Shown one piece after another: positions 14,975 to 62,680 of a DNA stretch of 64,000 nucleotides. Made by a program: the position numbers and the translations under genes. The notes under the pieces were generated by a model. It saw nothing but the letters and a program-made list of their open reading frames with translations. It was not told where the DNA came from and ran no database searches. This DNA is from Gigantopelta aegis (lineage: Eukaryota; Mollusca; Gastropoda; Neomphalida; Peltospiridae): NCBI RefSeq assembly GCF_016097555.1, contig NC_054713.1:40219523-40283522 (forward strand). The letters run 5' to 3'. Numbering within the stretch: the stretch's first letter is position 1; each line of letters opens with the position of its first letter.

Positions 14975-17900
14975 CTGAAAAGGGAAAGAGAGAGCGAGAA
15001 AAGAATTAAAATGTCGACTGAAATATGCCGATTTGAAATTTAGTTTTTCAGACAAAAACAAAAATCTCTATGATGTAACCAGTCTTAAAATTTCTATATC
15101 CCCACCCCCAAATAAAAAAAATTACAAATAAATTGTGTGTGAATTAAGTTTTATATTACAACAAAAAGTTTGTTTTGTTTAACGACACAACTGGAGTACA
15201 TTTCGGAGATAAACCATATTGAATTTTTAGATTTGTGGGTGTTATTGTCTATTTGATTTTTTACCTCAGGCTAACACCTTCGGTCAAAAATGACATTTGC
15301 GGGCATCAAATAGACAATAACACCCACAAATCTAAAAACTCAATATGGTTATGTCCATTGTAAACTGAATGGTTTTTCTACGGAACTAACTGTATATTTG
15401 GTATTTCTTGAAAACAAATACCTGGCTACAATCTAACTGTAGACCCTTGAATCGTCAACTTTGCCTGTTCCAATTGCTAATGACGTCATTAGCTTTCCAG
15501 GTGTTATTTTCATTTGATCCCAGAAAAAGAATGTAATTAACCAATCACAATACAGAACACACTCGCCATCAGTTTACTATCATCGGCTATTCGATGTCAA
15601 ACATATGGTGATCTTTTGACAGTCATAGAGAGGAAACCTGCTGCATTTTTCCATTAGTAGCAAGGGATGTTTTACATGCACCATCCCACAGACAGGATAG
15701 CACATACCACATTCTTTGATATACCAGTCATGATGCACTGGCTGGAACAAGAAATAGCCCAATGGGCCCACCATTGGGGATGGTTCCTAGATCGACTGCG
15801 CATCAAGTGTGCTATCTACTGACCGTGTATGTAGATATAGAAGCCTTCTTGTACACACTGTGCTATCTACTGACCGTGTATGTAGATATAGAAGCCTTCT
15901 TGTACACACTGTGCTATCTACTGACCATGTATGTAGATATACAAGCCTTCTTGTACACATTTCGCTATCTACTGACCGTATATGTAGATATAGAAGCCTT
16001 CTTGTACATATTTCACTATCTACTGACCGTGTATATAGATATAGAAGTCTTCTTGTACATATTTTACTATCTACTGACCATGTATGTAGATACTATCTAC
16101 TGACCGTGTATGTAGATATAGAAGCCTTCTTGTACATACTGCGCTATCTACTGACCATGTATGTAGATATAGAAGCCTTCTTGTACATACTGCACTATCT
16201 ACTGACCATGTATGTAGATATAGAAGCCTTCTTGTACATACTGCACTATCTACTGACCATGTATGTAGATACTATCTACTGACCGTGTATGTAGATATAG
16301 AAGCCTTCTTGTACATACTCCGCTATCTACTGACCGTGTATGTAGATATAGAAGCCTTCTTGTACATACTTCGCTATCTACTGACAGTGTATGTAGATAT
16401 AGAAGCCTTCTTGTACATACTGCACATCTACTGACTGTGTATGTAGATATAGAAGCCTTGTACATATTGCACTATCTACTGACCGTGTATGTAGATATAG
16501 AAGCCTTCTTGTACATATTTCACTATCTGTGCCTTGTTTTCTGGAACGAAGCTCACGACCACGTCCACCAGCTGATCCTTGTATTTCTGCAGCAGCGATA
16601 ACGTCTCAATGTGCGCCTGTTTCTCAATCACAACCAATGGCTTCTTTAACTTGATCGAAAGTTGAATCTTAAAACAAATAATAATAAATGGTTACAGTAT
16701 GGTGTGTTTCCTGCATTGTAAGATGTTTCCAACTAATAAAATCTAAAACTACGCATTAAATTAATTTTCTTGTTTAGAATATCAGTGTCTATATATTCAA
16801 TGTGTTTCTGGTCATCTTAATATTTGTAAAAAGCCCAAACTGGATTTTGTCTTCAAATACTTTTGTACGTACGAAGAAAAAAATATTTTAGTAAATTAAT
16901 TGAACGATCAGAAACACATTTAATATTTTATACAGAAAAATATACAGTCGTTAAAAGTCTGTTAGTCTATAACATCTTAAAAATTGCAGCAAACCCAGGA
17001 ATGTCCCTATAAGAGGGAGAAAGCGGCTCGTTTCTCAATCACAACCAATGGCTTCTTTAACTTGAAACTGGTGTAACAAAGATCGTGGTATGTACTATGC
17101 TGTTTGTGGGATGGTGGATATAAAAGATCCCTTGCTGCTAATCGAAAAGAGTAGCCCATGAAGTGGCGACAGCGGAATTCCTCCCTCAATATCTGTGTGG
17201 TCCTTAACCATATAACCATAAATAAAATGAGTTGAGTGCGTTGTTAAATAAAACATTTCCTTTCTTCCTTCTTTAACTTGATCGAAAGTTGAATCTTAAA
17301 ACAAATAATAATAAATAGTTACAATATGGTGTGTTTAATTAAGAGGAAGAAAGGGTTTCTTCTTCTAAACTACAACCAACTTAAACTTTAACTTGATCGA
17401 AAGTTGCATCTTAAAACAAATAATAAATGGTTACTGTATGGTGTGTTTAATTAATAGGTGCATGTCTGCTTTTATCTTCTGAATCATTAACAAACAGCTT
17501 GTTTAATTTGAGAAAGTAGAATTAACTCTAAATGGCACTAAAATCTTGGGGAGGGATGTAGCCTAGTGGTAAAGCGTCCGTTTGATGTGCGGTCGGTCTG
17601 GGATCGATCCCCGTCGGTGGACCCATTGGGCTATTTTTCGCTCCAGCCAGTGCACCACGACTGGTATATCAAAGGCTGTGGTATGTGCTATCCTGTCTGT
17701 GGGATGGTGCATATAAAAGATCCCTTGCTGTTAATCGAAAAGAGTAGCTCATGAAGTGGCGGCAGCGGGTTTCCTCTCACAATATCTGTGTGGTCCTTAA
17801 CCATATGCCCGACGCCATATAACCACAAATAAAATGTGTTGAGTGCGTCGTTAAATAAAACATTTCCTTCCTTCCTAAAATCTGGAATTCTAACAGCACT

Positions 17901-20900
17901 CAGAGGTTCCCAGCTCCCTCTGGATATATATTAACGTATGTTTTCACCTGTTTTTCAAATGCATAAAGCTGCTGTGACTGGGAGGAACTCAGCTCGTCTG
18001 TGCTTAGATCCAGGCCACACTCTCCGATGGCCACGCAGTGACCGCTGGAAGCTATCTGCGTCAACTGAGTCTCTGCCTCATCAGTCCAGAAAGGTGCGTG
18101 CTTCGGACCCAAACCTAAAATATCATTATTGTCTCAGCCATCACTTATAACAAGGAAAATAGTCTTCATATTTTCTCATATATTTTGTTCATATTTTGCA
18201 GTTAGCACTGAGAAAATACCTGAAAGAATATGATTATAGACCTTGCCATCACTTATAACATGGAAACTAGTCTTCATATTTTCTCATATTTTTTTCATAT
18301 TTTGAAGTTACACACTCAGAAAAATATCTCATTGTTGTAACACATCATATTATTGGATCTTTCTTTAAAACATTTTCTTATTTTTCTTATTTAAAATTTT
18401 ATTTTATTATTATTTAATATTATTATTATTGAGCAATGTAGCCCTTACTAATCAATGACTTTGTTGGTACTAAATATGACAGCGTAGTTCATTTAAAAAA
18501 CAACAAAATGTGGTCAGGAAAACACAGTAATTGGGAATAATGGCTGTAAATACCAGACAGGTAATGTCAAATGGCATGTAAGTGCGACTTTATCAGGGTT
18601 TTTTTTGCATATTTTAAAACCAAATTAACTTATCTAAAATATCATAAAAATTAGAAAAACCTACAAAAATAGGTATAAAAAATAAATAGTAACATTATTT
18701 TATGTATTTATAACAAATTTAAGTGAAAATATGTGAGTAAAAGTTATAAATTTGTACCCACTCAACATGGGTCTTGTCAAAAATTAATCCAGTAGCTAGG
18801 GACCAATTTCACAACACAATCGTAAGCCAAGTTTTGCACGTAAACGTAAATTTACGACTAAATCACAATTCTTCTTATTATTATAGTAGCACAAATATTG
18901 TTAGAAGTACACGTATTTCACGTTCTTGTGTCCTTAATATGCTCCATTTTCCGTAATGATGTCATTTTCTGCATGAAATGGACGTCAAACACGTGTAAAC
19001 TGGTATAACTGATAAACACAGACGTAAACTTACGATGTTTTGTGAAATTGTCTCCAGAAGGCTACGGTTCAAGCATGCTGTCCTTAAAAAGACACCTCGG
19101 CTACATGTATGTGGGCTGTCTGTCTAAGTGTTTCTGCCAGAAAGACATTTTTGGGTATGGCGCTATGGAATTGAATGCAATCACAGGTAACAGGAGGTAT
19201 GGAGTGCCTCCCCCATAAAGAAAATTAGTTACGTTTAGGGTTAGGTTAAGAAAATCATACAGTAATGATAAGATTAATTATTAATTTTGTCAAAAGGTTA
19301 ACTTTAAAAATAAATCTGTAAAACATTGGGGTATTGCACCATATCCATTTTACCCTCTGGCAGAAACCCTGCATATATTTTAGACCAAAACAAAACACAG
19401 AACAATTAAAACCTATAAATATTAAAATAATACTATGAGATGTGTAAACAAAATAAAGAAAATTAACACACATAGCATTTTAGCTCTAATTTTATGGTAA
19501 CAAACCACTTGCTAACACATGTGAATTTTCATCCTTAACTTAATTAAACTGTACCTGCAGTACAAAAAAGAGAGCCTGAAAATAGTCTACAAAGACCGAG
19601 TGCTTGTTCACACTGGTGCACGTTTGCTCCTAGGACAACCATTTTCTTTACACCTGAAATAGTAATTTTAAAACACGTTAAGAAATATTTCTGAAAGAAA
19701 GAAAGAAATGTTTTAACGACGCACTCAACACATTTTATTTATGGTTATATAGCATCAAACATATGGTTAAGGACCACACAGATAATGAGAGGAAACCCGC
19801 TGTCGCCACTTCATCGGCTACTCTTTTCGATTAGCAGCAAGAGATCTTTCATATGCACCATCCCACAGACAGGGTAGTACATACAACGGCTTTTGATATA
19901 CCAGTCGTGGTGCACTGGCTGGAACGAGAAATAGCCCAATGGGCCCACCGACGGGGATCGATCCCAGACCGACCACACAATGAGCGAGTGCTGAACCACT
20001 GGGCTACGTCCAGCCCCGAAACATTTCTGAAGACAGAATCAACTGAAAATAGTATTTTATTTCATTCTTTCAGATGTCTATTTACTGTACTAAATAAAAT
20101 TTATCAAGTTTCAACTTGGGGACAAAGACAAAAGGAATATTTGCCAGTTATTGGGGGGGTGGGGGGGGGGGGGAAAGTTTGTTTTGATTAATGACACCAC
20201 TGGAGCACATTGATTTATTAATCAAAGGCAACTGGATGTCAAACATTTGGGAATATTGACATATAGTCTTTGAGAAGAAACCTGCTAAATTTTTTCACCA
20301 GTAGCAAGGGATTTTTTATATACACCATCCCACAGACAGGATAGCACATACCACGGCCTTTGACATACCAGTCGTGGTGTACTGGCTGGAACGAGTAATA
20401 GCCCAATGGACCACTGATGGGGATCGATCCTAGACTGACCGCACATCAACCGAGCGCCACATCCCATCCCTCAGTTATTGGGGGAAAAAAGAAAGGAACG
20501 GTTGCTTATCAGGTGATCATTGTGAAACTTGGTCTATAGAAAGAAAAGGATAAAAGAAATGTTTTACTTAACAATGTACTCAACATTATTTTAATTACAG
20601 TTATATAGCATCAGATATATAGAACCACAGATATAATTGGAGAGGAAACCTGCTGATCCTAGACCGACCGCGCATCAAGGGAGCACTTTACCACTGGGTT
20701 ACATCCCGCCCTCTAACCCCGAAATAAGAAATAAAATCCTCACCACAGCTTTGAGCACGTTCGATGACATTGAGTGCGTTCTTGGAGAACTTGGGATGCG
20801 TCAGATAGACCCCGGCATCAAACAGCTTGTAGAGGAAGGGCATAGACCGGAGAGAGTTGTACTGGTTGGGCGACGGCGTCTTGAACACACCCGTCTCTTC

Positions 20901-23900
20901 CTGCTGCCACCTGGTGGATTTCGAGATCTTGAAGTCTTCGCTTAGCACCACGGTAATCCGGTGACCTTTCATGTTCCTGCGAAAAATAACACAAAACAAG
21001 CATTTTAATATTCTTACTCCCCCATTAGTGAATGAGTGAGTGAGTGAGTGAGTGAGTGAGTGAGTGAGTGAGTGAGTGAGTGAGTGAGTGAGTGAGTGAG
21101 TGAGTGAGTGAATGAATGAATGAATGAATGAATGAATAAGTTTGTTTTGTTTAATGACACCACTAGAGCACATTGATTTATTAGTCATCGGCTGTTGATG
21201 TCAAACATTTAGTAATTTCTGACATATAGTCTTAGAGAGGAAACCTGCTACATTTTTCCAATAGTAGCTAGGGATCTTTTATATGCACCATCCCACAGAC
21301 AGAATAGCACATACCATGGCCTTTGGTATACCAGTCATGGTGCACTGGCAAGAATGAGAGATAGCCCAATGGGCCCACCAACAGGGATCAATCCCAAACC
21401 AAACGCACATCAAGCGAGCGTTTGACCACTGGGTTGCATCCCACCCCAATGAATGAATAAATGAACGACAACCAAGCACAAAAATTCACATCGGCTGTTG
21501 GATGTCAAATCCCTGTCAATGGCTGCATCTACTAAATAACAAAAGTGTCAGTATTCTGACCATGTGATTTCTGACCATGTGAACTTGCAAAAATTCTGTT
21601 CTTTTCAAACAAAATATCAATTAATACATTGAAATATTTTGCCAATTAAAATAACATTTGTTAATTGTTTTTAAAATTTGTAACTGGCGAATCTGACAAG
21701 TGTCCGAGCTAGCCCAGATAGTTTTAAAAACTCACCGTCCATTGTAATTCAGGAAGTCGTTCACCAGAGTTATGGGAATACTGACAGCAGCAAATCCTTT
21801 TTGTTTGCCTTTCTTGTCGACTGCAATTCTGAATGACACATCGTGTTTTTTTATCAACTGACTGAAGCAGTCCTTCAAATCCTCTATAGTTGTGTCTTTA
21901 CGAATATTACCTGGAAAACAAAAACCCCATCAAACAAAGAAAAGGAATGTTTATTAAAGTTTCTTTTGCTTTGCTTAACGACACCACTAGAGCTCATTGA
22001 TGTATTAATCATCGGCTATTGGATTTGACAAATGAAACACATTTGGTAATTCTGACATATAGTCCTAGAGAGGAAACCCACTATATTTTTCCATTAATAG
22101 CAAGGGATCTTTTATATGCACCATCCCACAGACAGGATAGCACATACTACGGCCTTTGATATACCAGTTGTGGTGAACTGGTTAGAATGAGCTTCATGCG
22201 AGTGCTTTACCATTGCACGATGTCCCATTTCAGGTATGTTTGTTATAATAAAACCTAAGTACATTTCAAACTACACCATGGCAATTTGATGTCTACCATA
22301 AGGTTATTTCCACATTTGGTCAAGACTCAAGAGAGAAAGAGAGGAAACATACTGCTTCCACATAGGCTGCAAGGGATCTCTTGTAATCACTTTATCATAC
22401 AGGACAGTGCATACCATGGAGGAAATATATTAATGGTCTCACCCTGTACATTGCCAAATTAGTCCATAATTGAACTGCTAATGTTTTGGGTACAATGGGC
22501 TATTCCTCTTTCCAACCAGTGCACTGCTAATTTTTTTGGCACATTTGGGCTATTCCTTATTCCAGCCAGTGCATCACAACTGGTATATCAAAAGCTGTAG
22601 TATGTGATATCCTGTCTGTGGGATGAGCCATATATTAAAAAAACCTTGCTCCAAACAGCAAAATGTAGCAGATTTCCACTCTAAGACTACATGTCAGAAT
22701 TACCAAATGTTAAGTTACCTTTTAACTGAAGTGGTGGAAGAGGTGTGTATAATGTATAATTAGGATTTACACACTTTTTTATCAACCAAATTCCATGACA
22801 TATGAATTCCATGACTTTTTGAAAGCTTTTTCCATGACCTTTCTTAGAATTTTCAATGATTTTTCTGCAATCATTAAGACAATAATATTAAAAAAGATTA
22901 TTATTATTATTATTTTAATCCATACCGCCTTTCTGGTATTTTAAACTGGTAAAAATTAATGTACCATGAAATTTATTACTTTCCATTACCAAACTCAAAA
23001 CGACATTTGAAAATTGAAAGACTTTCCAGGAATTTCATGACCTATTTATCATATCTATAGTATGTGGAATGTGTGTCATTGTAATGGTTTTATCATGATT
23101 TCTGTTTGGACAAAATATTGGTAAAATCTATTGGTTGGAGAATAATTTATTGTAGTTGTTATAGGGAGAGTAAACTCAAACATGAGCCTTATGTGTTGGA
23201 AAGATGCATACCCGGACCACCAACACATACTGACACTTTAAGAAATGAAAAATACATCATTTTAGAGTTAATTAAAAAATGTGATTATTCCTGCTAATTG
23301 AGGACAGCCATTTTCTTTCGTTTTCGTGGCATCCGGTACTATAGTTTGGGGTTCCGACCCAATTCCTGTATGCACAGTGTAAACAAATGCTCTAATTTAT
23401 GACAAGGCGCTTCGCTTTCATCAACCTGACTTGTAAAACAACATAAATGACTGGATAATATAATAAACTATTTAACTAAATATATTTCAATTTGCATTAA
23501 TAGAACGAAATGGGGTTATAGTATTTTTCTCTCTTAAAAAAAAAAAAAAAAAAAATATATATTATTAGGCCTATTGGTAGGGTATGTTGGAGCAAAAAAG
23601 ACCACTCACAATACCCAAGTGATAATTTTCTTTTCTGTGGGACTACGTAATTGGTCAGTTTTGTGATTTTAGATGGGAAAGTCTACTTAATCAAGGGTTT
23701 TACATAATTATTTACAGTAATAAAGCAGGACAGCTGATAATGCCCATTATCATTTTAGAGGTGGTTATGCAGTTATCCCACAATACCACTTGATCTTACT
23801 AAAACAGGCACATATTTTTGTTTGTGTCTAGACACCCTGACTGGTAACCGTCCAAAATATACATCTGCCAATCAGGAACCACAGGTACAAGCCATGAAAA

Positions 23901-25369
23901 GAAAAGACCAATTAACTAAGGAAACACTCTGATTATCATTTCAGTACGTGGGTTAATGCATGGACAAAACACAATACAGTTATTTCAACACTTTGACAAT
24001 GGTGGTTTATTTTGTATTGAAGAATAATATATACTTACTGATGGCTTACTGGGATGGATATTAGTACAGAACATTGCGATGCATCCGCAAAAATCAGGTA
24101 CGTTTTGTTTCTTCAGTTTCTAAGACTAATTCCTGACGTGACATGTTAAGTATTACGTAACCACCAGCTCACCAGAGGGCTTATTCACTGGGATGGTACA
24201 AAATGGCTGTGCCTGTTATATATAACAGCGGTCACATTTAACCATTTTATTAATTAAAGGAACATTCCTGAGTTTGCTGCAATTTTTAAGATGTTATCGA
24301 CTAACAGAAACTTTTTAACGATTGTAATTACATATATAATATATTTTTCTGCATAAAATATTAGTGGCTGTATATTAAACGTGTTTCTGATCGTTCTAAT
24401 ATTTGTACTAGGTTAAATTTCATTTTATTTCCTAAAAAAGATTTTTTCGTATGTACAAAATTATTTGAAAACAAATTCCAGTTTGGGCTTCTTACAAATA
24501 TTAAGACAACCAGAAACACATTGAATATACAGACACTGATATTCTAAACAATAAAAAATGTTTAATATGTAAGTTTAATCGCAGAAATATTTTATTAGTC
24601 AAAAACATCTTACAATGCAGGAAACTCGGGAATGTCCCTTTAACTATATGATTATACTTGTTGATATTAAGCAATAATGTACATTATATATTGCTGAATA
24701 TGCATACCAGTCCAAAAGTCTTGCTTAAGCATTCCTTTAACAATGTGGTTAGGACTTTAGGTAAAAGCAGATACAGAAATTTTAGCAGAGGGGTGTTTAG
24801 CTATGGGGTGTCTAGACTGTGCCAAGAAGTGTATAGTGGGGTAGAGTCATGTTACTCCAGAAAATTTAGTGATAAAATGTTCGGGTTAAGCCCCGAAACC
24901 TACTCCCTGCACATATGCAAGTAAGGCATAAATATAAAATAGACAAACAATAAAAATTAAATATAAAAAAAAACATTAAAAAAAACAAGAAATATAGCTT
25001 TACACAGATAGAAATATCGGTTTAGCCTACTTTCGGGTGTGGTTAGTCCAAAACGGTCCATGACAAGTCGGTAGATTACTAGATAGGGCCTACTGATCTA
25101 TTACTGCCATATCTAAACTAGCATGTGGTAATGTGGAAGGGTCATAGCGCCTCGAACCCTAAACCTTCGACAAATAGTATAAAGACTACACAGAATTATG
25201 AATATGTATATTAAGCTGCAAAGTGAAAAATAATTAAAAATTGATTGTCATCGATTGCGTTTCTACATCAGCAGACGACAACACAAACACAAATAGTTAA
25301 ACAAAAACAATTACCTATTACAATCTGTTTTACAGGTGACATAAACAAAGATGAGTCTATTTTTGACAT
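14436..25369 (-). CDS. RRM plus TatD-like (TATDN1-type) protein with C-terminal membrane anchor
   Basis: Seven exons: 25369-25315, 21910-21736, 20976-20744, 19653-19555, 18114-17948, 16667-16484, 14974-14436. All junctions are GT-AG and in phase, giving 483 residues. Residues about 14-88 form an RRM (QIVIGNI as RNP2; KGFAAVSI as RNP1, with one aromatic lost). About 129-430 match TatD hydrolases: FDAGVYLT, then VKKMVVLGANVHQC, VAIGECGLD with Glu219, and SEPCSLPSML near the end. TatD enzymes use His and Asp residues that are absent here: HPH is GPK (190-192), the next His is Glu258, HCF is VSF (281-283), and ETD is GSA (336-338). It is therefore probably a pseudoenzyme. Residues 446-468 are one hydrophobic helix, so it may be tail-anchored with the rest facing the cytosol. 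Function is unknown; RNA binding is inferred from the RRM. The start is the first ATG of exon 1. Confidence 0.8.
15166..15355. mobile_element. Palindromic MITE inside a SINE-A tail fragment
   Basis: GTTTGTTTTGTTTAACGACA (15168-15187) is a SINE-A tail broken off at about 15205. Directly after it is a hairpin: CATATTGAATTTTTAGATTT with GGGTGTTATTGTCTATTTGA on the left, reversed on the right up to 15350. The stem is about 60 bases. Confidence 0.7.
15578..15808 (-). mobile_element. SINE-A copy in intron 6
   Basis: Tail (TCATCGGCTATTCGATGTC), body (GCACCATCCCACAGACAGGA) and head (CCAATGGGCCCACC, CGCATCAAGTG) in reverse. The outer head is cut off exactly where the 51-bp array begins. Confidence 0.8.
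15809..16530 (-). repeat. 51-bp tandem array made of the exon 6 end and its splice donor
   Basis: About 15 units; two are cut to 26 bp (near 16065 and 16246). On the minus strand each unit reads TACAAGAAGGCTTCTATATC, then TACATACACG, then GTCAGTAGATAG. The first part is the end of exon 6 (VQEGFYIYIH) and the second is its donor with the following intron. The unit nearest the exon (16472-16522) contains the functional junction at 16484/16483. Nearly every other unit keeps GTCAGT. The unit is a multiple of three, but reading past the donor meets TAG at once. Confidence 0.85.
16484..16667 (-). CDS. RRM-TatD gene, exon 6
   Basis: Entry phase 0, exit phase 1. It encodes residues 244-304 (IQLSIKLKKPLVVIEKQAH to QEGFYIYIH). 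In TatD enzymes the PLVVI is followed by a metal-binding His; here it is Glu258. The last 30 bases belong to the 51-bp array. The donor chosen, CACG then GTCAGT, restores the phase of exon 7 (codon G305). Both ends of this exon have been copied into their introns. Confidence 0.85.
16693..17006. mobile_element. MITE of the AGGGACATTCC family, one end truncated
   Basis: Shares TTTCCTGCATTGTAAGATGT, TCAATGTGTTTCTGGTCATC and ACATCTTAAAAATTGCAGCA with the element at 24258-24639. The right end, CCCAGGAATGTCCCTATAA, is nearly intact; the left end has lost its outer 15-20 bases. Confidence 0.75.
17066..17267 (-). mobile_element. SINE-A variant b inserted in a duplicated copy of exon 6
   Basis: A 14-bp direct repeat, CTTCTTTAACTTGA, flanks the element (17052-17065 and 17268-17281). 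This is the normal target duplication of a retroposed SINE. It split the middle acceptor copy, so the duplication of the exon edge came before this insertion. The head is truncated. Confidence 0.85.
17550..17872 (+). mobile_element. SINE-A variant b, full length
   Basis: Forward copy with complete head (GAGGGATGTAGCCTAGTGGT, GGGATCGATCCCCGTCGGTG), body (GATCCCTTGCTGTTAATCGA) and variant b tail (CCATATGCCCGACGCCATAT, GTTGAGTGCGTCGTTAAATA). It lies in intron 5 of the minus-strand gene, antisense to it. Confidence 0.9.
17948..18114 (-). CDS. RRM-TatD gene, exon 5
   Basis: Residues 188-243, entry phase 1, exit phase 0. It contains GLGPKHAPFWTDEAE, where TatD enzymes have G-V/I-H-P-H, so the metal-binding His is replaced. 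It also has HCVAIGECGLDL, with the Glu219 that is the one conserved metal ligand. The SSQSQQLYAFEKQ end corresponds to the conserved Q-x-x-x-F-x-x-Q helix. Confidence 0.85.
18120..18310. repeat. Imperfect tandem duplication in intron 4
   Basis: GCCATCACTTATAACA, AGTCTTCATATTTTCTCATA and TTCATATTTTG occur at about 18137-18200 and again at 18245-18305. No exon sequence is included. Confidence 0.7.
18800..19055. mobile_element. MITE, GGACCAATTTCACAA ends
   Basis: GGACCAATTTCACAACACAA with TCGTAAG at the left is answered by CTTACGATGTTTTGTGAAAT at the right. Internal landmarks are TTGCACGTAAACGTAAATTT and CAAACACGTGTAAACTGGTA. A related copy at 48650-49130 carries a further insertion. Confidence 0.7.
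19065..19128 (-). mobile_element. SINE-D fragment
   Basis: GGTTCAAGCATGCTGTCCTT and GGGCTGTCTGTCTAAGTG match the middle of SINE-D at 14085-14135. The rest is missing; it abuts the next element. Confidence 0.5.
19129..19376. mobile_element. hAT-like MITE, GTTTCTGCCAGA ends
   Basis: GTTTCTGCCAGAAAGACATT on the left and CCCTCTGGCAGAAACCCTG on the right form inverted ends. Internal landmarks are GGTATGGCGCTATGGAATTG and GGGTTAGGTTAAGAAAATCA. The CAGGGTTTCTGCC start is hAT-like; no transposase is present. Further copies lie at 41.0-42.0, 43.5 and 50.2 kb. Confidence 0.65.
19555..19653 (-). CDS. RRM-TatD gene, exon 4
   Basis: Residues 155-188. It encodes VKKMVVLGANVHQCEQAL, then GLCRLFSGSLFCTAG. 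This is the second beta strand of the TatD barrel and the start of the strand that normally ends in the H-P-H motif. Entry phase 1, exit phase 1, donor GCAG then GTACAG. Confidence 0.8.
19691..20016 (-). mobile_element. SINE-A variant b, full length
   Basis: Complete reversed copy from the (GAAA)n tail through CACTCAACACATTTTATTTA and CCATCCCACAGACAGGGTAG to ACGGGGATCGATCCCAGACC and CTGGGCTACGTCC. It lies in intron 3. Confidence 0.9.
20175..20470 (-). mobile_element. SINE-A, full length
   Basis: Reversed copy with tail (GTTTGTTTTGATTAATGACA), body (ACACCATCCCACAGACAGGA) and head (ATGGGGATCGATCCTAGACT, CGAGCGCCACATCCC). A G-rich run at 20154-20173 lies directly before it. Confidence 0.85.
20547..20715 (-). 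mobile_element. SINE-A variant b, large internal deletion
   Basis: The variant b tail (GAAATGTTTTACTTAACAAT, CTCAACATTATTTTAATTAC) joins directly to the head (GATCCTAGACCGACCGCGCA, CCACTGGGTTACATCCCGCC). The body between them is missing. The head ends about 30 bases before exon 3. Confidence 0.8.
20744..20976 (-). CDS. RRM-TatD gene, exon 3
   Basis: Residues 77-155. It starts with the end of the RRM (NMKGHRITVVL matches the usual last strand). A linker follows (SEDFKISKSTRWQQEETG), then the start of the TatD barrel, KLFDAGVYLTHPKF. TATDN1-type proteins have D-I-G-x-N-L-T at this point, so the domain joint is clear and both domains share this exon. That argues for a true fusion rather than two genes. 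Confidence 0.85.
21028..21138 (+). repeat. (TGAG)n then (TGAA)n microsatellite
   Basis: About 20 TGAG units followed by seven TGAA units, in intron 2. A SINE-A tail follows at once, so the run probably grew from the SINE target or tail. Confidence 0.95.
21141..21447 (-). mobile_element. SINE-A, full length
   Basis: Reversed copy with tail (GTTTGTTTTGTTTAATGACA), body (GCACCATCCCACAGACAGAA) and head (CCACCAACAGGGATCAATCC, CCACTGGGTTGCATCCCACC). Confidence 0.85.
21736..21910 (-). CDS. RRM-TatD gene, exon 2 (RRM core)
   Basis: Residues 19-77. It carries GNIRKDTTIEDLKDCFSQL (end of strand 1 and helix 1), FRIAVDKKGKQKGFAAVSI (strands 2-3 with RNP1) and ITLVNDFLNYNG (helix 2). Entry phase 1, exit phase 2. 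The alpha/beta pattern and the RNP motifs together support an RRM rather than chance similarity. Confidence 0.8.
21958..22232 (-). mobile_element. SINE-A copy with shortened head
   Basis: Tail (TTTGCTTTGCTTAACGACAC), body (GCACCATCCCACAGACAGGA) and a short head (GCGAGTGCTTTACCATTGCA) in reverse. The B-box region is deleted. Confidence 0.8.
22490..22720 (+). mobile_element. Degenerate SINE-A
   Basis: A forward copy with GGGCTATTCCTTATTCCAGC, CAGTGCATCACAACTGGTAT and TATCCTGTCTGTGGGATGA. The 5' part is duplicated: the GGGCTATTCC / CCAGTGCAC module occurs at about 22497 and 22548. Confidence 0.65.
22721..23162. other. Intron 1 stretch, repeat-like
   Basis: AATTCCATGACTTTTTGAAA near 22806 and CCAGGAATTTCATGACCTAT near 23026 suggest inverted ends of an old MITE. 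No gene is seen. Confidence 0.4.
23163..24736 (+). mobile_element. TTAA-bounded element, left member of an opposed pair
   Basis: Begins AGGGAGAGTAA-like sequence after TTATA and ends ATTCC before TTAA (24737-24740). The reverse complement of this element is 25781-27935; shared landmarks are CCCGGACCACCAACACATAC, TCTGTGGGACTACGTAAT and GCATACCAGTCCAAAAG. A younger 382-bp MITE (24258-24639) is nested in it. Without that insert the element is about 1.19 kb. It is non-coding. Confidence 0.75.
24258..24639. mobile_element. TTAA-target MITE nested in the left element
   Basis: The inverted ends are AGGAACATTCCTGAGTTTGC and its counterpart GAAACTCGGGAATGTCCCT. It is flanked by TTAA on both sides. 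The opposed element has the undisturbed site (CAATTAAATATAATAATATA on its complement), which proves insertion at TTAA. It is the same family as 16693-17006. Confidence 0.85.
25315..25369 (-). CDS. RRM-TatD gene, exon 1 (start codon)
   Basis: ATG at 25369 begins residues 1-18, MSKIDSSLFMSPVKQIVI, ending in phase 1 at ATAG before GTAATTG. QIVIG is RNP2, so the RRM is split right after its first strand. No in-frame ATG was found further upstream that is better placed. The 5' untranslated region and promoter must lie in 25370-25780. Confidence 0.75.
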
Positions 25370-25780
25370 TGTTGCTCTCTGTTTAGCCTACATACAATAC
25401 ATGATATAACAGATTTCGCAACAAATCGGCATCGCTTCCTTTTCTTTTGCTAACGCAGATTTAATTTTTGTTTACTACATAAGAGTTATCTCCCCATGTA
25501 AGGTGACAGAGAAGCAAATTGGCCAATCAGTGTTCCGTTATCCTCGAGTTGTGTCCGGTGATTACCAAGAGAAAGTGTAAGAAGCGCGGTAAATTTGTAT
25601 ATGCTTTGGCAACTAAACTATTATAAAAACATATCTAAATTACGAAAGGATATATTAGTCTGTGTTACTTCAGACAACTTTATTTCAGAAGCGAACTTTT
25701 CATTATGTTAGATAATCAAAAATAAAGTGCACAAAGGATAAAATACAGATCTGCAATTCAATTCTAAAATAAATACTTAA
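25370..25780 (-). promoter_or_regulatory. Presumed promoter and 5' UTR of the RRM-TatD gene
   Basis: The only unique DNA between the start codon and the neighbouring transposon. It includes GAAGCGCGGTAAATTTG and is otherwise AT-rich. I see no clear TATA box. The call rests on position only. Confidence 0.4.
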
Positions 25781-27935
25781 AGGAATGTTTAAGCAAGGCT
25801 TTTGGACTGGTATGCATATTCAACGATATATAATGCACATTATTGCTTAATATCAACAAGTATATTATTATATTTAATTGATAAAACGGTTAAATGTGAC
25901 GGCTATTAGATATAACGGACACAGCCATTTTGTTCCATTCCAGTGGCGAGCTGGTGGTTACGTAATACTTAACGCGTAACGTCAGGAATGAGTCTTAGAA
26001 CTAGAGAAACAAAATCTATATGGATTTTGCGGGATGATAAAATAGTCATGCAATGTTCTGTAGTGATATATATCCCAATAAGCCTGCAATAAGTATATAT
26101 TATTTTTCAATACAAAATTAAACACCATTGTCAAAGTGGCTACACAAGTCGAAATAATTGCATTAACCTACGTACTGAAATGATACATGGAGTGTTTTCG
26201 TAGTTAATTGGTCTATGCTGTTAGTTGCCCTACCTGTGATTCCTGATTGGCAGGTGTGTATTTGGTTGGTAACCGGACGAGCCAATTAATTGACGCTGTC
26301 TAGACACAAAAATACATACCGGTATTGTGTCATCTTACCTGTCGCCAATAAAATGGTAATGGATATGGTTTATTACTGTAAATAGTTCTGTAAAACTAAT
26401 GATTAAGTAGACTTTCCCATCTTAAACCACAGAACTGACCAATTACGTAGTCCCAAAGAAAAGAAAATTATCACTTGGGTATCGTGGGTTGTCGTTTTTG
26501 CTCCAACGTACCAATAGGCCTAAGGCCGCGATCACATTTATCCGTTTTTTCCTTCCGCTTCCGCTCCCGCACCCGTTATCCGTCGTCAGTCAAATTCGAT
26601 TGTATTGAAATCAATGCGTGCAAACAGACCTATCCGTCTCCGCTTCCGCACACTTACACTCGTCCGCACAAATCGTTCCTGGACCGATTTTGACTGAAGC
26701 GGACAATGGATGCGGATAGGATTCCCACAGTGTGACGTCATATTTAGGGTATTTCCTGACCTCGCGATTCAATTCTTCGTAGATACAGCTCTAATTACAT
26801 AAATATCTGTCTGTCTGTGTGTCTGTATATATGTCTGTGTGTTTGTGTGTGTAAGTTATTTCATTATTCCATCAATGTAAATATTTTCATAATTAATTTT
26901 TATAGGGGGGGTGTGGTAAGGTGGGGTTCAAACATACCCCAACCCATCAAGTACTTTCATATTTTGTTAAAGGTCAAATACCACCCATTCCCACGAAAAA
27001 TAAGTGATACAGGTATGCCACTGAATACATTTACACGTGAAATCACAGTATTCATGAATTTCTTGTTGAAATGATGACTTAATATCGACCAATGGCTATA
27101 AGTACTAGTAATTTATAATCAATTTGCTATAAATACGAAAACGTTATTGTCTGCAGTGTCTTTTACTGGTGAAATGTATATGTTTCTAAGGTACGTAGTT
27201 ATGTAGGTTGTTGGTCTGGCACCTTTTCATCGTCTTCTTTCTCCTTTTTCCATACCAATACATTAGCAAAACATCATCATCATCATCATCATCATCATCA
27301 TTGCAGCGGACTTGTAGGTATTTCGACATGTCGAATAATTAGGGATATTTGTTGTATGCTTCGAAGTATATATACCCTACAACACACGTGAATATCAAGT
27401 ATTCTCGTGCAGCAACTGTAGACATGCATTTTTGTTAAAATTACTGACAGGTGTGTTCGTAAGCAACGGACAACGGACGACGGATAACGGGTGCGGGAGC
27501 GGGAGCGGAGAGTAAAAAGCGGATAAATGTGATCGCGGCTTAAGTGTACATGTTTCCTATGGATTATATACTATAACCCCATTGTGTTCCGTTAATTGAA
27601 CGTGAAATATATTTACTTAAACAGTTTGTTATATTATCTTATCACGTCATTTATGTTGTTTTATAAGTCAGGTTGATCAAAGAGAAGCGCCTTGTAGAAA
27701 ATTATTGCTTTTGTTTACACTGTTGGTCAGGAGCTGACGTCACTTCGCCCCAAACTAGCTGTACCGAACGCCTCGAAAAGAAAAGAAACGGCTGCCCCCA
27801 GTTAGCAGGAATAATCACGTTTTTTTATTAACACTAAAATTACGCGTTTTTCATTTGTCAAAGCGTCAGTATGTGTTGGTGGTCCGGGTATGCATCTTTC
27901 CAACACATAAGACTCATGTTTTAGTTACTCTCCCT
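25781..27935 (-). mobile_element. TTAA-bounded element, right member of the opposed pair
   Basis: Lies between TTAA at 25777-25780 and TTAA at 27936-27939. It starts AGGAATGTTTAAGCAAGGC and ends GTTACTCTCCCT. It carries a 1,017-bp PIF/Harbinger-type insert. Without it the element is about 1.14 kb, close to its partner. Because each member has its own TTAA borders, two separate insertions are more likely than one foldback element. Confidence 0.75.
26524..27540. mobile_element. PIF/Harbinger-type non-autonomous transposon
   Basis: Terminal inverted repeats of about 65 bases: GGCCGCGATCACATTTATCC at the left, GGATAAATGTGATCGCGGCT at the right, followed inward by matching CCGTTATCCGTCGTC sequence. 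The flanking 3-bp TAA duplication (26521-26523 and 27541-27543) fits PIF/Harbinger. The empty site (CCAATAGGCCTAATAAT on the complement, near 23565-23580) is preserved in the opposed element. No transposase frame is seen; the interior has a (CAT)n run at 27267-27302. Confidence 0.85.
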
Positions 27936-28147
27936 TTAATTTCAAAACACAAATAACGATTAAGTTAGAGTACCCATTCCTAGCATTTGAACACCTCTGA
28001 AAATGATCAAAAGTTTATATTCGTGGCAAAAAAAAAAAAAGAGTAGCAAAACATGTTATTACTTTTACTATCATATTGTTATTACTTAGCAGTTGGGTTG
28101 TCTGAGAGGATAAATCATAATGAATACTGTTAAACCATCGATTACGG
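27936..28147. other. Short gene-free stretch
   Basis: Nothing recognised apart from an A-rich tract near 28027-28039. Confidence 0.4.
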
Positions 28148-28468
28148 TACGTTTACTCCGATTGATTGATTGATTGATTGAAAATTACAATCGTAAATTT
28201 GTGTACAACTTAATGAGGGCCTCGTAAGTTGGAGAACTTGTGCCCAATCCTTTAGTGTGTGTGTGTGTATGCGTGCGTGCGTGCGTGCGTGCGTGCGTGT
28301 GTGTGTAATATACATACGCGCGTGTATGTGTGTGCGTGTCCAATATAAACTAGTTTTTGAGGTCAATAATGTAGGTTTATTATTTTATTTTTTTCAACTC
28401 AGTATAAATAAAGATTCATATGCACACACTTCAAATATCGTTCATACGGGCCTGCTATATTGATTTTG

Positions 28469-28521
<53 letters not shown>

Positions 28522-28522
28522 A
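28148..28522. repeat. Cluster of microsatellites
   Basis: (GATT)n at 28159-28180, (TG)n/(CGTG)n at 28254-28310 and a 26-unit (AC)n at about 28470-28521. No gene; the open frames here are repeat translations. Confidence 0.9.
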
Positions 28523-29035
28523 AAAAAGAGTTAGGAACAAGAATCAAATTGTGTGGGGGGTAATTTTAGTCAGTGGTGGATCATATCCGGGAAATTAATG
28601 TCTACCATTAAAAAAAAAAAAAAAAAGCCTGAGACTTGATGAGTCCTTGAATACCAGTCATGATTGTACAAAATCTGTATCAGAATGAGCTAGCTTTGTT
28701 TAAAAATCGACATATAACGAACATGTAATGTGTATCAGAAGGCATGATACGCAGAACCGAAAAGTTGGTGCAGAATGGATGTTGGGGTTCTTGTTGTTTT
28801 GTTTTGTTTTGTTGGGGTTTTTTTGTTGTTGTTTTTTGGGGGGTTCTTTCTTTCTTTCTTTTTTTTTTTTTGGGGGGGGGGGTGGTGCAACTGAGTAGTT
28901 AATAGTCTAAAACTCCTTAAACAGAATTTTCTTTTAGTTTCTATAATTTCACAACAAACAAAAATTCCCTCATTCCCCGCTAGCAACGGCCCTACCATTC
29001 CGTATCCAAATGACCTTTTGTTCAGATTTACCAAG
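28523..29035. other. Gene-free stretch with homopolymers
   Basis: A poly-A run near 28610-28626 and a G/T-rich tract at about 28790-28886 with long T and G runs. No gene recognised. Confidence 0.5.
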
Positions 29036-29044
29036 GTAGTTAGG

Positions 29045-29742
29045 CAATCTAATTAAAATTAGCTCCACTATTACATGTGGATCTAACAGCAGCCAGTTGT
29101 AGCTCATGTCCACTAATCAAAACCTTACTTGCAGAATCATGCCAGCGATTTAAAAATAATTTGAAAACATTCCGAATTATCCTGAGGGTATACGACATGT
29201 TTCGTGTGAATTACGAATGCCTTAAAACATGTTTTATTTTATAAAATAAATAATTTGTAATGTAAAACTGAAGACTGATTTAGTTTTGTTTTTTTATAAA
29301 TAAATAAATAATTTTTAATGTAAAATTGAAGACTGATAACCCATGCCGTACGTATTGGTATGGTTCGCTGTACTGCGGCCACTAAAATAGACTCGCCCGA
29401 TATTTTTAGAATTTGTATGCTCCCAAATAACGTCGTAAAAGGCGAAGTGTGATTGGTCAATATTTAAATTATTATTTACAGACGAAATGTTACCTGGACA
29501 TTGGAGACTACGCTGTGTTGTTAGCAATCTGATTAAAATTAGTTCTACTGGTCTAAATAAGGCATTCGTAATTCACATGAAAACATATCGTATACCCTCA
29601 GAATAATTCGGAATATTTTCAAATTATTTTCAAATCACTGGCATGATTCTGCAAGTAAGGTTTTGATTGGTGGACATGAGCTCCAACTGGCTGCTGTTAG
29701 ATCCACATACATGTAATAGTGGAGCTAATTTTAATTAGATTG
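29045..29742. mobile_element. Second copy of the MULE-like long-TIR element
   Basis: Ends match 7965-8557 (CAATCTAATTAAAATTAGC and its complement). The flanks carry a 9-bp direct repeat, GTAGTTAGG (29036-29044 and 29743-29751). The interior is inverted relative to the first copy and contains an extra, shortened end sequence near 29523 (GCAATCTGATTAAAATTAG), so it was rearranged. Confidence 0.8.
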
Positions 29743-29751
29743 GTAGTTAGG

Positions 29752-30146
29752 ATATTAAAGTGGCAGACCCTAGTTTGTTTTAACTCTACGGCGTATTTTT
29801 CACTATTGGAGCCGTTTTTGATCATTGGAATCAGACATTATGTATATTGTATTGTTTTAGATTATCCATTTCCGTACAACCGAATTGTTTATGGTCACCC
29901 TGGTGTTTGTAATGCCACGCAATACATTTTTCATAATTCTAAAAAAAAACGTACGTACCTTTGAGAAGGAACGGTTATAGAGACGAGCTCTTGTCTATTT
30001 TAGGAGTAATTTCCTCGTGTTAAGAGTCACAGACTCTTGTTTCAATCTATTGTAACTAATTTATTCAGATGTGTTACAGGTGTATAGAATAACCAAACTT
30101 AATGTATATTTTCACGTGCTCAAACTAGGGTTTGCGACTTTAAGAT
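29752..30146 (+). mobile_element. MITE, AGTGGCAGACCCTAGTTTG family (family F), copy 1
   Basis: The left end is AAAGTGGCAGACCCTAGTTT and the right end is CAAACTAGGGTTTGCGACTT with TAA. Internal landmarks are CACCCTGGTGTTTGTAATGC, GAACGGTTATAGAGACGAGC and CAGACTCTTGTTTCAATCTA. Other copies are near 30736-31546, 40262-40862 and 53765-54095. Confidence 0.75.
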
Positions 30147-30227
30147 ATTAAAATACCATTTTAAAATTCATCCTCCACAATACACGACCAGCAGGTTCGT
30201 AGGAAAATTGTCCTTTTCGTAGGAACC

Positions 30228-30527
30228 AGGGTCCATATTTTCGAAGCAATCTTAGCCTACGAAATCGTAAAATCGTCGTAAGCTATGACGTCACTATGGC
30301 GTGCGCTGTAGTGACGTCACACCCTACGATGATTATAGGATTTCGTACGACTAAGATAGCTTCGAAAATATGGGCCCAGGGCCCATATTTTCGAAGCTCT
30401 TAATGCTACGAAATAGTAAAACCATCGTAGGGTGTGACGTCACTACAGCACACGCCATGGTGACGTCATAGCTTACGATAATTTTACGATTTCGTAGGCT
30501 AAGTTTGCTTCGAAAATATGAGCCCTG
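30228..30527. mobile_element. Two palindromic MITEs head to tail
   Basis: Each begins and ends with GGGCCCATATTTTCGAAGC or its complement. The centre is a long palindrome with TGACGTCAC motifs (TATGACGTCACTATGGCGTG). The first ends at about 30377 and the second starts at 30378 with almost no gap. Each is about 150 bases and would fold into one hairpin. Confidence 0.8.
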
Positions 30528-30735
30528 GGAGCCGGGCGGAGAGTAGGGACGAAAATATGCATGTGTTCTTTTCCTACTCTATATAACTAATATATAATGT
30601 AAATTTGGCTTGTCTCTTACCCCTACCCCCCCCCCCCCCACTAGAGACTATGCCACCAACCCTCCACTAGACTAGATAAGACAAAATAGCGCATATCTAG
30701 ATCACTAATAGTTCTGTTTGTAACGGAAATTAACC

Positions 30736-31546
30736 TTAAAGGGACACGCCCTAGTTGTTAACCATTACGCCGTTGGTTTTCGCTATTAAAGCCATTTTTT
30801 TCACAAATAAAATTGCACTTCCATTCACCTGAAGTGTTTTTTGGTAATCCTGGTAATCCTGGTGTTTGTAATACCACAAAACGCATTTTTCGTATTTCAT
30901 AAAATGCCACGGGCCTCTGAGAAAAAACCGTTGAGCAGACAAGGTCTAATCTATTTTTAGAGGGGATATTCCCATTTCAATGTCACAGACGTTGGTATAC
31001 CACGTGACCGTTATCATTTTGGTTCGGTTTGTTTTCTCGTGCACGGTTCGCGCAATCAACATCCGATTTGTTGTCGTTTGCTTGTTGTTCATTTGTGAGA
31101 TTTTTCTTCACAGTTCGTGAACAATTTCAGTAACAATAAAGTTCAGACAAGTAAGTATCTCAATACAAAACGTTACAAACCCTTAAAACCAATACTTTTG
31201 CTAAGTCTTACGATATCTGGAGAGGGGATACAACCAGAACAGAACAGTTGGAACATGTCCAGGAGAGGTGAAAGGAACGCACCCCAAGTCTGTGCGCACT
31301 CTGTGAAATTTGTCGTGACGTAGGCATTGTTGTGCTTCGAGCGACATCTACCGGTGACATCAGAATACTAACTTTCAAAATTATTTCAAGCAATTGGGAC
31401 ATGGGGATTCCCATGGTATTTATCGATATAAAACCTGCTTTTTCACTCCATTTGATAAAAAACGTGATCTAAGTGTGTTACAGGTTTGTAGATTAACCAA
31501 ATTATAATTTATTTTCACTGGATGGAACTAGGGCGTGCGGCATTGA
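30736..31546 (+). mobile_element. MITE family F, copy 2, enlarged by an insertion
   Basis: The left part (AAAGGGACACGCCCTAGTTG, CCTGGTGTTTGTAATACCAC) and the right end (GGAACTAGGGCGTGCGGCAT) match family F. The middle, roughly 31000-31440, is unrelated and may be an insertion. I recognise nothing coding in it. Confidence 0.6.
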
Positions 31547-31629
31547 AAGTTCCCAATGGAGGATCGATTTTCAAGATCCGTTGATATATATTAATTTCCA
31601 CTCCATACCACCCCGAATAGACATTTGAA

Positions 31630-31665
31630 CCCCCCCCCCCCACACACACACACACACACACACAC
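31630..31665. repeat. Poly-C and (CA)n
   Basis: A C run followed by about 14 CA units. Confidence 0.9.
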
Positions 31666-31862
31666 CCTGTTCAACCCGGAATCGACCTTTTTAACAACTT
31701 AATGACATAGGCGTACGGTCTATATCAGCGTACTTGAACTTTACTTGGATACAAGCACGAAAATAAGTTGAAATGAGTGAATGAATCTGACTGCTTAAAT
31801 AGCGTAATTATTAATTTTAACATATACAACGCTAGTTCATAACGCGCATTAAATATTTTCTC

Positions 31863-31948
31863 GGGGCGGGACGTAGCCCAGTAGTAAAGCGCTCGCTTGA
31901 TGCGCGGTTGGTTTTGGCTATTTCTCATTCCAGCGTCACGACTGGTGA
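31863..31948 (+). mobile_element. SINE-A head fragment
   Basis: GGGGCGGGACGTAGCCCAGT, AAAGCGCTCGCTTGATGCGC and CTATTTCTCATTCCAGC. It is a nearly consensus head with the B-box region deleted. Just before it lies a SINE-D-type tail (ACAAGCACGAAAATAAGTTG, 31752-31771). Confidence 0.75.
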
Positions 31949-31974
31949 AAAAACAACTAAAAGCACGCATCTAC

Positions 31975-32605
31975 ATAAGCGTACGAGCCATGGGGGCAGG
32001 GTGCTGCAGTAAAACTTCAAATTCGGGCAAAAAATGACACAGATATTCGGGGAAAATGTGCTAACCTGAGATCTTTTTACTGAGTATTTCCATCATTCCA
32101 CCATGTAAAAATGAAGCAGTGATTCGTTTGCAATCCTGTGTAGCTGTTTGGAAGTAATGCTAATATGAAAGAAAGAAATGTTTTATTTAACGACGCACTC
32201 AACACATTTTATTTACGGTTATATGGCGTCAGACATATGGTTAAGGACCATACAGATATTGAGAGAAAACCCGCTGTCGCCACTTCATGGGCTACTCTTT
32301 TCGATTAGCAGCAAGGGATCTCTTATATGCACCATCCCACAGACAGGGTAGTACATAGAACGGCCTTTAATATACCAGTCGTGGTGCACTGGCTGGAACG
32401 AGAAATAGCGCAATGGGGCCACCGACGGGGATCGACCTCACACCGACCGCGCATCGAGCGAGCGCTGTACCACTGGGCTACGTCCCGCCTTTTACTAATA
32501 TGAATAAATGTTGTTATCCAGATTCGGGCACTTTCGTTTATTTCCGGTACAAGCCAGCCTGTCCCTTCCCCCACTACAAAAATGTGAGCCCGTAAGTCTA
32601 TGTGC
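31975..32605. repeat. Dispersed repeat split by a SINE
   Basis: 31975-32166 plus 32493-32605 match 2620-2960 (AATTCGGGCAAAAAATGACA, GAAAATGTGCTAACCTGAGA, CACTTTCGTTTATTTCCGGT). SINE-A variant b at 32176-32482 interrupts it. Confidence 0.65.
32167..32490 (-). mobile_element. SINE-A variant b, full length, with target duplication
   Basis: Complete reversed copy. A 10-bp direct repeat, CTAATATGAA, flanks it (near 32159 and 32495). The head ends CGAGCGAGCGCTGTACCACT with GGGCTACGTCCCGCC. Confidence 0.9.
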
Positions 32606-32649
32606 ATCTAATATAACGAGCGACAGCGAGTTGGGGGCAAAAAAAAGGT

Positions 32650-32940
32650 TGTTTTGTTTAACGACACCAGTGGAGCACATTGATTAATTAATCATCGGCT
32701 ATTGGATGTCAAACATTTGGTAATTCTGACTCGTATATAGTCATCAGAGGAGACCCGCTACATTTTTCCTAATGCAGCAAGGGATCTTTGTATGCACTTT
32801 TCCACAGACATGAAAGCACATACCACGGTCTTTGTCCAGTTGTGGTGCACTGGTTGGAACGAAAAAACCCACAATCAGCTGAATGGATCCACCGAGGTAG
32901 TTCGATCCTGCGACGCAAGCACCTCGAAAGCGAGTTGGAT
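32650..32940 (-). mobile_element. SINE-A variant c, full length
   Basis: Tail (GTTGTTTTGTTTAACGACAC), body (GCACTTTTCCACAGACATGA) and variant c head (GCTGAATGGATCCACCGAGG, TAGTTCGATCCTGCGACGC). Confidence 0.85.
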
Positions 32941-33086
32941 ACGTTTTTAAACGAGTTGCAAGATAAATGTTGTTTAATGGCCATGAATGTAATATTCTGT
33001 ATTTTGCACATCCTTACAAACAACTAAAACGTAATTTACGGCACTAGCGTGGCTGTTAACTTATGCGTCACAGTAATAAATTTAAA

Positions 33087-33300
33087 GTTTGTTTTGTTTA
33101 ACGTCACCACTAGAGCAAATTTATTTGTTAATCATCGGCTATTGGATGTCAAACATTTGGCAATTTTTTACATATAGTCTTAGAGAGAAAACCCGTTACA
33201 TTTCTCCATTAGTAGCAAGGGATCTTTTATATGGATCATTTCACAGACAGGATAGCGCATACCACGACTGTTGATATACCAGTCGTGGTGCACTAGCTGG
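33087..33300 (-). mobile_element. SINE-A, interrupted by the next copy
   Basis: Tail and body are present (GTTTGTTTTGTTTAACGTCA, TCGTGGTGCACTAGCTGGAA). The head continues at about 33597 (CTAGCTGGAATGAGAAATAG), after a nested SINE-A variant b. Confidence 0.75.
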
Positions 33301-33760
33301 AACGAAGAAAGGCAATGTTTTATTTAACGACGCACTCGACACATTTTTATTTACAATTATATGGTATCAGACAAATGTTTAAGGATCACACGGATATTGA
33401 AAGAGTAAACCCGCTGTCGCCACTTCATGGGCTACTCTTTTCGATTAGCAGCAAGGGATAATTTATATGCACCATCCCACAAACAGGATAGAATACTGGC
33501 TGGAACGAGTAAATGCCAAATGGGTCCACCGACGAGGATCGATCCTAGACCGACCGCGCATCAAGCGGACGCTTTACAACTGGGCTACGTCCCGCCCCTA
33601 GCTGGAATGAGAAATAGCCCAATGGGATTGATCCCAAACCGACCGCGATAGAATACTGGCTGGAACGAGTAATTGCCCAATGGGTCCACCGACGGGGATC
33701 GATCCTAGACCGACCGCGCATCAGGCGAGCGCTTTACTTATGGGCTACGTCCCGCCTCTA
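33301..33760 (-). mobile_element. Nested SINE-A variant b and duplicated heads
   Basis: A variant b copy (GCAATGTTTTATTTAACGAC to GGGCTACGTCCCGCCCC, 33310-33597) lies inside the older copy. The module AGAATACTGGCTGGAACGAG with GATCCTAGACCGACCGCGCA occurs twice (33490-33596 and 33648-33755), so the head was also duplicated. Confidence 0.75.
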
Positions 33761-33914
33761 CACAATAATACGGTTACGGTTAACTTACATGTTACAGAAC
33801 AATCAATTTCGCACGTCCTTATTTTATTGGATGGTATATGGCTCTGGTGACTGGGTCAGGTTATCTCTTAGACGGGAGGGTACGAAATTAACTTTCAAAG
33901 TATTTGAATTTGTG

Positions 33915-35560: not shown

Positions 35561-35941
35561 TTATTTAACGACGCCACTAGAGCACACTGATTTTTATCTT
35601 GTCATCGGCTATTGGACGTCAAACATATGGTCATTCTGACACTGTTTTTAGAGGAAACCCGCTGTCGCTACATAGGCTACTCTTTTACGACAGGCAACAA
35701 GGGATCTTTTATTTGCGCTTCCCACAGGCAGGATAGCACAAACCATGGCCTTTGTTGAACCAGTTATCGATCACTGGTCGGTGCAAGTGGTTTACACCTA
35801 CCCATTGAGCCTTGCGGAACACTCACTCAGGGTTTGGAGTCGGTATCTGGATTAAAATTCCTATGCCTCGACTGGGATTCGAACCCAGTACCTACCAGCC
35901 TGTAGACCGATGGCCTAACCACGACGCCACCGAGGCCGGTA
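35538..35941 (-). mobile_element. SINE-B, full length, with 14-bp target duplication
   Basis: Flanked by AAGCACGAAAATAA (35524-35537 and 35942-35955). Reversed: tail GTTTGTTTTATTTAACGACG, body TTGCGCTTCCCACAGGCAGG, head with tRNA-like GACTGGGATTCGAACCCAGT and CTAACCACGACGCCACCGAG. It is a third tRNA-derived type and sits inside the tail of the preceding element, which resumes at GTTGAAATGAATCAATGAAT. Confidence 0.9.
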
Positions 35942-36125
35942 AAGCACGAAAATAAGTTGAAATGAATCAATGAATAAATGAATTTGTGTATTTAGTAGAC
36001 TTGCAGTTATGACTCATATGAGTCCATTGAATACACATATATTTCATTTTGTATTTCATTATATACACAGAATTTATATTATATAGTCAGTTATGAATAT
36101 CGTAATAAATAAATATATAAATTCA

Positions 36126-37191: not shown

Positions 37192-37318
<127 letters not shown>

Positions 37319-37319
37319 C

Positions 37320-37848: not shown

Positions 37849-62680
<24,832 letters not shown>

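Follow-up and report, generated by a model that had tools for sequence, protein, structure and literature searches.

In two genes of the gastropod Gigantopelta aegis, the splice borders of several exons are repeated within the adjoining introns. What are these copies, how might they arise, and do they fall on splice borders more often than the general supply of intron duplications would put them there? The window in which they were noticed, a stretch of 64,000 nucleotides, lies on a 46-Mb contig (C15) of an assembly of 1,149,253,464 bp in 5,216 contigs; the genome of this species is described as 1.15 Gb in 15 pseudo-chromosomes with a GC content of 37.22% (PMC7895826). A megablast search of plasmids gave no matches. 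The preliminary description of the window pointed to seven exon borders lying inside arrays, and all seven arrays are present: TRF recovers five, and the two diverged acceptor sets (CHD4 exon 10 and the TatD-like gene) are recovered by reading and by a scan of the junctions.

The plus-strand gene is a CHD4/Mi-2 remodeller, one exon pair matching human CHD4 at an E value of 1.8e-56. Its model has 36 exons (16 in the window and 20 downstream) that join to 6,022 nt with zero stops and score 1,596 bits against human CHD4 over the first 1,342 residues. A lower-threshold run of the exon finder supplied seven of the 20 downstream exons; the finder was trained on the exons of the window and at its working threshold made 44 calls in 264 kb, compared to 11 in reversed sequence, both figures including low-complexity calls. 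The donor of exon 25 was set at 75850, not 75875, from the sequence and the frame read. Judging from human CHD4, at least one conserved exon may be absent from the model between 83853 and 86596. The minus-strand gene has a TatD DNase domain (TatD-type DNase, E value of 4.6e-23), and the domain search that gave this match did not find the RRM attributed to the gene earlier.

CHD4 exon 3 (45390 to 45488, plus strand) is a phase 0 exon with AG and GT borders in the stop-free frame of the 36-exon model. Its acceptor belongs to an array of four 123-bp units (44937 to 45432), each made of 80 intron bases, the acceptor and 43 exon bases; the units are 99% alike according to TRF and present four acceptors. 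Exon 10 (56540 to 56728, plus strand) is duplicated at both borders. Its acceptor copies (56010 to 56572) are diverged, with copies at -492 and -126 (76 to 83% alike) and at -231 (by eye) in addition to the real one, and its donor array (56711 to 56974) consists of five 53-bp units of 18 exon and 35 intron bases. The acceptor of exon 14, a helicase motif exon (60789 to 60980, plus strand), lies in an array of four 66-bp units (60560 to 60812) that contain 24 exon bases and begin at the end of a dispersed repeat, and AA replaces AG in two of its three decoys. The donor array of exon 15 (61773 to 61909, plus strand) has 2.4 units of 58 bp (61874 to 62012) with 36 exon bases, and GA replaces GT in the decoy donor.

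The TatD-like gene has one exon (16484 to 16667, minus strand) with both donor and acceptor duplicated. The donor array (15808 to 16528) comprises about 14 to 15 units of 51 bp with 45 exon bases, and its distal end adjoins a SINE-like repeat. Copy numbers for exon 3, the exon 10 donor, exon 14, exon 15 and the TatD donor (about 15) agree with those given earlier. The TatD acceptor had also been described as a threefold array; three copies are indeed found (16640 to 17450, with borders at 16667, 17294 and 17409), but they form no tidy tandem array, the copy borders being 627 and 742 bp off and the middle copy having been split later by a SINE-like insertion between two TCAAGTTAAAGAAG repeats.

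At the acceptor of CHD4 exon 16, two copies of TTCCTCTTGCAG enclose a short piece of repeat tail (62384 to 62466, plus strand), an arrangement that reads like a target-site duplication, as if a SINE had entered the acceptor and the target-site duplication had copied the splice site. The pair is too short for the junction test and was therefore left out of the counts. Two larger arrays lie nearby. A 100-bp unit is repeated 12 times, with 99% likeness, in CHD4 intron 16 at 63173 to 64360, past the window end. Just outside the window, at 65055 to 66365 in window numbering (L001, 1055 to 2365), lies a minisatellite in which a 27-bp unit recurs about 49 times. Within its 1,310 bases there are 47 copies of TTTTAG and one TTGTAG, the final TTTTAG being the exon 17 acceptor, and this exon thus follows an extended series of 3′ splice signals that are nearly identical. 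The array includes one exon base at most, and for that reason it is absent from the junction counts.

The junction scan asks for an ungapped duplicated segment spanning each border. Among 39 window junctions, eight scored between 23 and 103, and none of the remaining 31 scored above 9. Of the eight, seven are those already described (acceptors of CHD4 exons 3, 10 and 14, donors of exons 10 and 15, and the TatD donor and acceptor). The eighth, TatD junction 18114, has similarity on the intron side only and was dropped, failing the strict test, which calls for no fewer than 7 matches in 10 on both the exon and the intron side, a score of at least 18 and a copy within 1 kb. Beside this acceptor there is a 108-bp intron duplication (18107 to 18290) whose exon side is unmatched. 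By the strict test, 12 of 80 CHD4 and TatD junctions are duplicated: 7 of 40 in the window, where about 44 junctions had been reckoned earlier and the present gene models hold 40, and 5 of 40 in downstream CHD4, which had not been seen when the arrays were first noticed. These five are the acceptors of exons 18, 22, 23 and 24 and the donor of exon 25. A downstream scan gave 10 matches at 38 junctions, from which two were dropped as a low-complexity RERERE false exon, one (69584, score 15) as failing the strict test, and two (123441, score 90, at a predicted exon, and 150761, with no exon-side match) as lying outside the CHD4 and TatD models. The score-90 duplication covers the donor of the predicted exon at 123396 to 123500 (L006, window numbering) and stands uncounted.

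Myosin exons on other contigs were examined in the same way, and 5 of 53 junctions were duplicated, giving 17 of 133 overall, or roughly one junction in eight. Ten of the 30 myosin loci gave no exon. The initial 65 junctions, with six matches, were reduced to 53 by removing duplicates from overlapping loci (one match was double), two doubtful secondary exons, and locus L022, which has a stop inside the exon. Two of the five matches are weak, the L025 acceptor having a decoy without AG and the L050 acceptor including 11 exon bases. At L026, a myosin exon donor is copied eight more times (about 1683 to 2355); the copies are mostly spaced 80 bp apart, and GTGAGT is intact in all eight. Both kinds of border are affected, with eight acceptors and four donors in CHD4 and TatD and two acceptors and three donors at the myosin loci. 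The exon part of the unit measures 11 to 51 bp in the 17 cases, and the units are about 50 to 150 bp long.

Judged by their organization, the border arrays are mirages, a structure known from lancelet genes, and the earlier statement that they have no described name does not hold. Tandem duplications of exon-intron borders were given this name in the lancelet Adh3 and globin genes, where they affect both kinds of border, have units of 10 to 160 bp, carry AG or GT in many but not all copies and differ between haplotypes, with splicing that seemingly stays regular (PMC3087553); further examples are reported in PGBD5 and troponin C (PMC3902484). The same build of unit, an exon part, the splice site and an intron part, is found at the 12 CHD4 and TatD junctions. 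As described in these accounts, the lancelet mirages (Adh3, BflGb6/BflGb9, TnC and PGBD5) resemble those of G. aegis in being minisatellite-like, in occurring at donors and acceptors, in unit length, in the AG or GT of many copies and in the intact exon. The arrays here differ in belonging to another phylum, in occurring several to a gene, in reaching about 15 copies and in having their rate set against an intron background. Regular splicing and differences in length between haplotypes or cells belong to the description of mirages; the G. aegis arrays are known from the DNA of one assembly, in which the joined CHD4 exons keep an open frame, and regular splicing is predicted for them. The kind of structure is therefore already known, and neither a case from this phylum nor a measured excess turned up in the open-licence literature searched (titles and starts of abstracts), which is not a claim that gastropod mirages are absent from print.

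Two other systems are related. Intron gain by tandem duplication has been described for ATP2A1 and for the potato RdRp gene, and in its published description the potato intron began as a duplicated stretch spanning a single intron-exon border (PMC4974935), and the arrays here likewise cross a border. In G. aegis, however, no new intron is seen: in the present models the copies lie within existing introns, and the CHD4 exons connect without a frame break and can be aligned with human CHD4. Repair-mediated duplications in primates, including humans, are likewise local copies of at most a few hundred bases that can hold splice sites, 4 of 824 donors in the reported set being part exon and part intron, and they show microhomology at their breakpoints, where short repeats were noted by eye at three of the present arrays; that study, as described, removed copies lying within 50 bp of each other (PMC2671141), unlike the present analysis.

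We put at roughly 68% the reading that the mirages are short local tandem duplications that chanced to straddle splice borders, with the following mechanism and a mild hotspot. Microhomology-assisted template switching or synthesis-dependent break repair would start the arrays, the start point sometimes being the end of an inserted SINE-like repeat, and slippage or unequal exchange would then enlarge them. The spliceosome is predicted to stay with the exon-proximal site, so that the copies would be removed with the intron, and use of a decoy would give a premature stop. The least certain part is that exon borders may act as a mild hotspot for the initial duplication. The outward direction of all arrays, which had been taken as informative, is a matter of geometry for every tandem duplication that straddles a splice site, because the extra copies of an acceptor unit must fall upstream and those of a donor unit downstream. 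We entertain only tentatively the stronger proposal that borders are true hotspots where local tandem duplications begin several-fold more often than in the surrounding intron DNA, perhaps through a tie to SINE insertion or to transcription or splicing, and that a large share of genes accordingly carries arrays of decoy splice sites, of which the 27-bp array at exon 17 would be an extreme.

A part for dispersed repeats is suggested by the breakpoints. In 264 kb around the window there are 82 arrays with a period of at least 25 outside dispersed repeats, and 15 of them start or end no more than 25 bp from the edge of a dispersed repeat, compared to 4.3 ± 1.9 at random (0 of 500 trials); arrays thus adjoin dispersed repeats beyond chance. 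Directly upstream of the exon 3 array is a repeat (44548 to 44936, plus strand) flanked by a 13-bp direct repeat, CATTTCTGAGATA, which is here called SINE-like. Its 3′ part occurs at 39 other places with 93 to 95% identity among 40 candidates scored. The exon 3 array begins within the TTTC tail of this repeat, and its units carry the repeat tail and one target-site repeat, so the insertion preceded the array. Repeat ends are also where the arrays of exon 14, exon 24 and the TatD donor begin, and the upstream copy at exon 22 follows such an end. It could be supposed, then, that breaks caused by SINE insertion near an exon start the arrays, which would come to occupy the space from SINE to exon or even shield the exon from the SINE. 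We consider this doubtful, since a dispersed repeat is missing from the distal edge of at least 4 of the 12 border sets (exon 10 donor, exon 15 donor, exon 23 acceptor and exon 25 donor), and repeat tails acting as microhomology could equally explain the adjacency. Short repeats at three array breakpoints, noted by eye with no statistical control, are TTCT at exon 3 and AGATAG at the TatD donor, each seen at both breakpoints of its array, and TGGGTC/TAGGTC at the exon 10 donor; template switching or repair would be expected to leave such repeats. At exon 18 (L001, about 67050 to 67260 in window numbering), a 5′-truncated SINE-like repeat lies between the border copies, and its TTTC tail occupies the position of the polypyrimidine tract of the real acceptor.

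Are the borders struck more often than introns in general? If local tandem duplications were so abundant that some simply fell on borders, and the clustering in the window reflected chance and the reader's choice, no hotspot would be needed. The raw coverage seems to agree with this, in that 296 of 2435 non-repeat CHD4 intron points (12.2%) lie in a local duplication, close to the 15% of CHD4 and TatD junctions. We rejected raw coverage as a control, along with the little or no excess that it implies, because every copy in an array enters it separately: n copies turn one ancestral site into n intron points, whereas each junction enters the count a single time. The control was therefore weighted by copy number. 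With this weighting, 3.4% of ancestral intron sites are duplicated (2.9% at more than 300 bp from exons), and the values elsewhere are 3.1% outside genes, 1.0% inside exons and 2.0 to 2.5% at the myosin loci. Against 3.4%, the 17 of 133 junctions give P=3.5e-6, and the 10 of 93 held-out junctions, with the window excluded, give P=0.0014. The myosin junctions alone give P=0.010, or P=0.016 with the doubtful exons retained (5 of 59) and P=0.15 without the two weak cases (3 of 53). The most conservative weight, one half per duplicated point, raises the control to 6.4%, and P becomes 0.0048 overall and 0.072 for the held-out junctions.

The placement of arrays, which does not depend on the junction scans, leads to a similar picture. 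We left out two arrays inside exons and any that were more than half dispersed repeat, and replaced the TRF row of the TatD donor by its full extent from the TRF run on the window. Seven of the resulting 18 TRF intron arrays in the two genes, window included, cross a border. A null in which exon overlap is limited to 51 bp expects 1.5 such arrays (P=0.0003), and a null that ignores exons expects 5.5 (P=0.28). For arrays with an edge within 60 bp of a border, 12 of 18 were observed, compared to 3.4 expected under the exon-limited null (0 of 4000 simulations) and 5.1 under the unconstrained one (P=0.0013). One of the seven border-crossing arrays is a weak 30-bp two-copy repeat over the CHD4 exon 5 acceptor (48456 to 48517, 78% matches), which fails the strict test.

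The absence of any hotspot is thus favored by the exon-ignoring placement null and by the conservative held-out value, but the corrected control of about 3%, the duplicated junctions in held-out CHD4 and in myosin, and the concentration of array edges near borders even under the unconstrained null make it unlikely. The border excess claimed earlier accordingly stands against the copy-number-corrected null, also at junctions that had not been seen, and weakens under the two least favorable tests. It is probably about 3- to 5-fold over the intron background but is not settled, and its size depends on the null that is chosen.

An excess could also arise if border arrays were born at the background rate and survived or stayed recognizable for longer, the exon half being under selection and deletions next to exons being purged. 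Since drift does not affect the exon half of the original, old copies would stay detectable; the three most diverged CHD4 cases (81 to 84%; exons 10, 18 and 22) are all acceptors, as this account would allow. Such better retention of exon-anchored copies, offered in the preliminary description, is not favored, since the border arrays are no older than the intron arrays: 9 of 12 border matches have at least 90% identity, compared to 50.1 of 84.7 (59%) in the weighted intron control. The excess also persists in this 90% class with copy-number weighting (12 of 133, P=1.6e-5; held-out, 6 of 93, P=0.011), although the held-out value with the conservative weight is P=0.24, and on balance we find retention improbable as the source of the excess.

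Base composition was rejected as a cause, the 73 non-exonic units (intron and intergenic) having 37.2% GC and their flanks 37.3%. Copy-by-copy alignment bears out that splice signals are kept in some copies and lost in others. The decoy AG or GT is retained in 69 of 81 copies over all arrays, compared to 62.4 expected from divergence, and, once the two largest arrays are set aside, in 30 of 42, compared to 33.7. On these figures we rejected selection on the decoys in either direction; AG and GT are lost at about the rate at which the rest of the unit diverges, and the copies therefore look neutral. All 26 CHD4 decoy uses examined would meet a stop. We discarded this as evidence because control stretches, at the same distances from CHD4 junctions without copies, meet a stop almost as often (715 of 773), and the chance that all ten nearest decoys would meet one is 0.24. 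Expansion of the arrays by long reads or polishing during assembly, which the near identity of some units (99% at exon 3) might suggest, is very improbable given that most sets are diverged, one copy has a later insertion and several show distinct losses of AG or GT.

If the excess holds genome-wide, duplication of DNA would not be blind to gene structure. This would bear on the origin of introns and of alternative exons; published models of intron gain use tandem copies of splice borders as raw material. Genes with intact decoy acceptor or donor arrays would offer natural tests of the way in which the spliceosome picks one of several identical sites.
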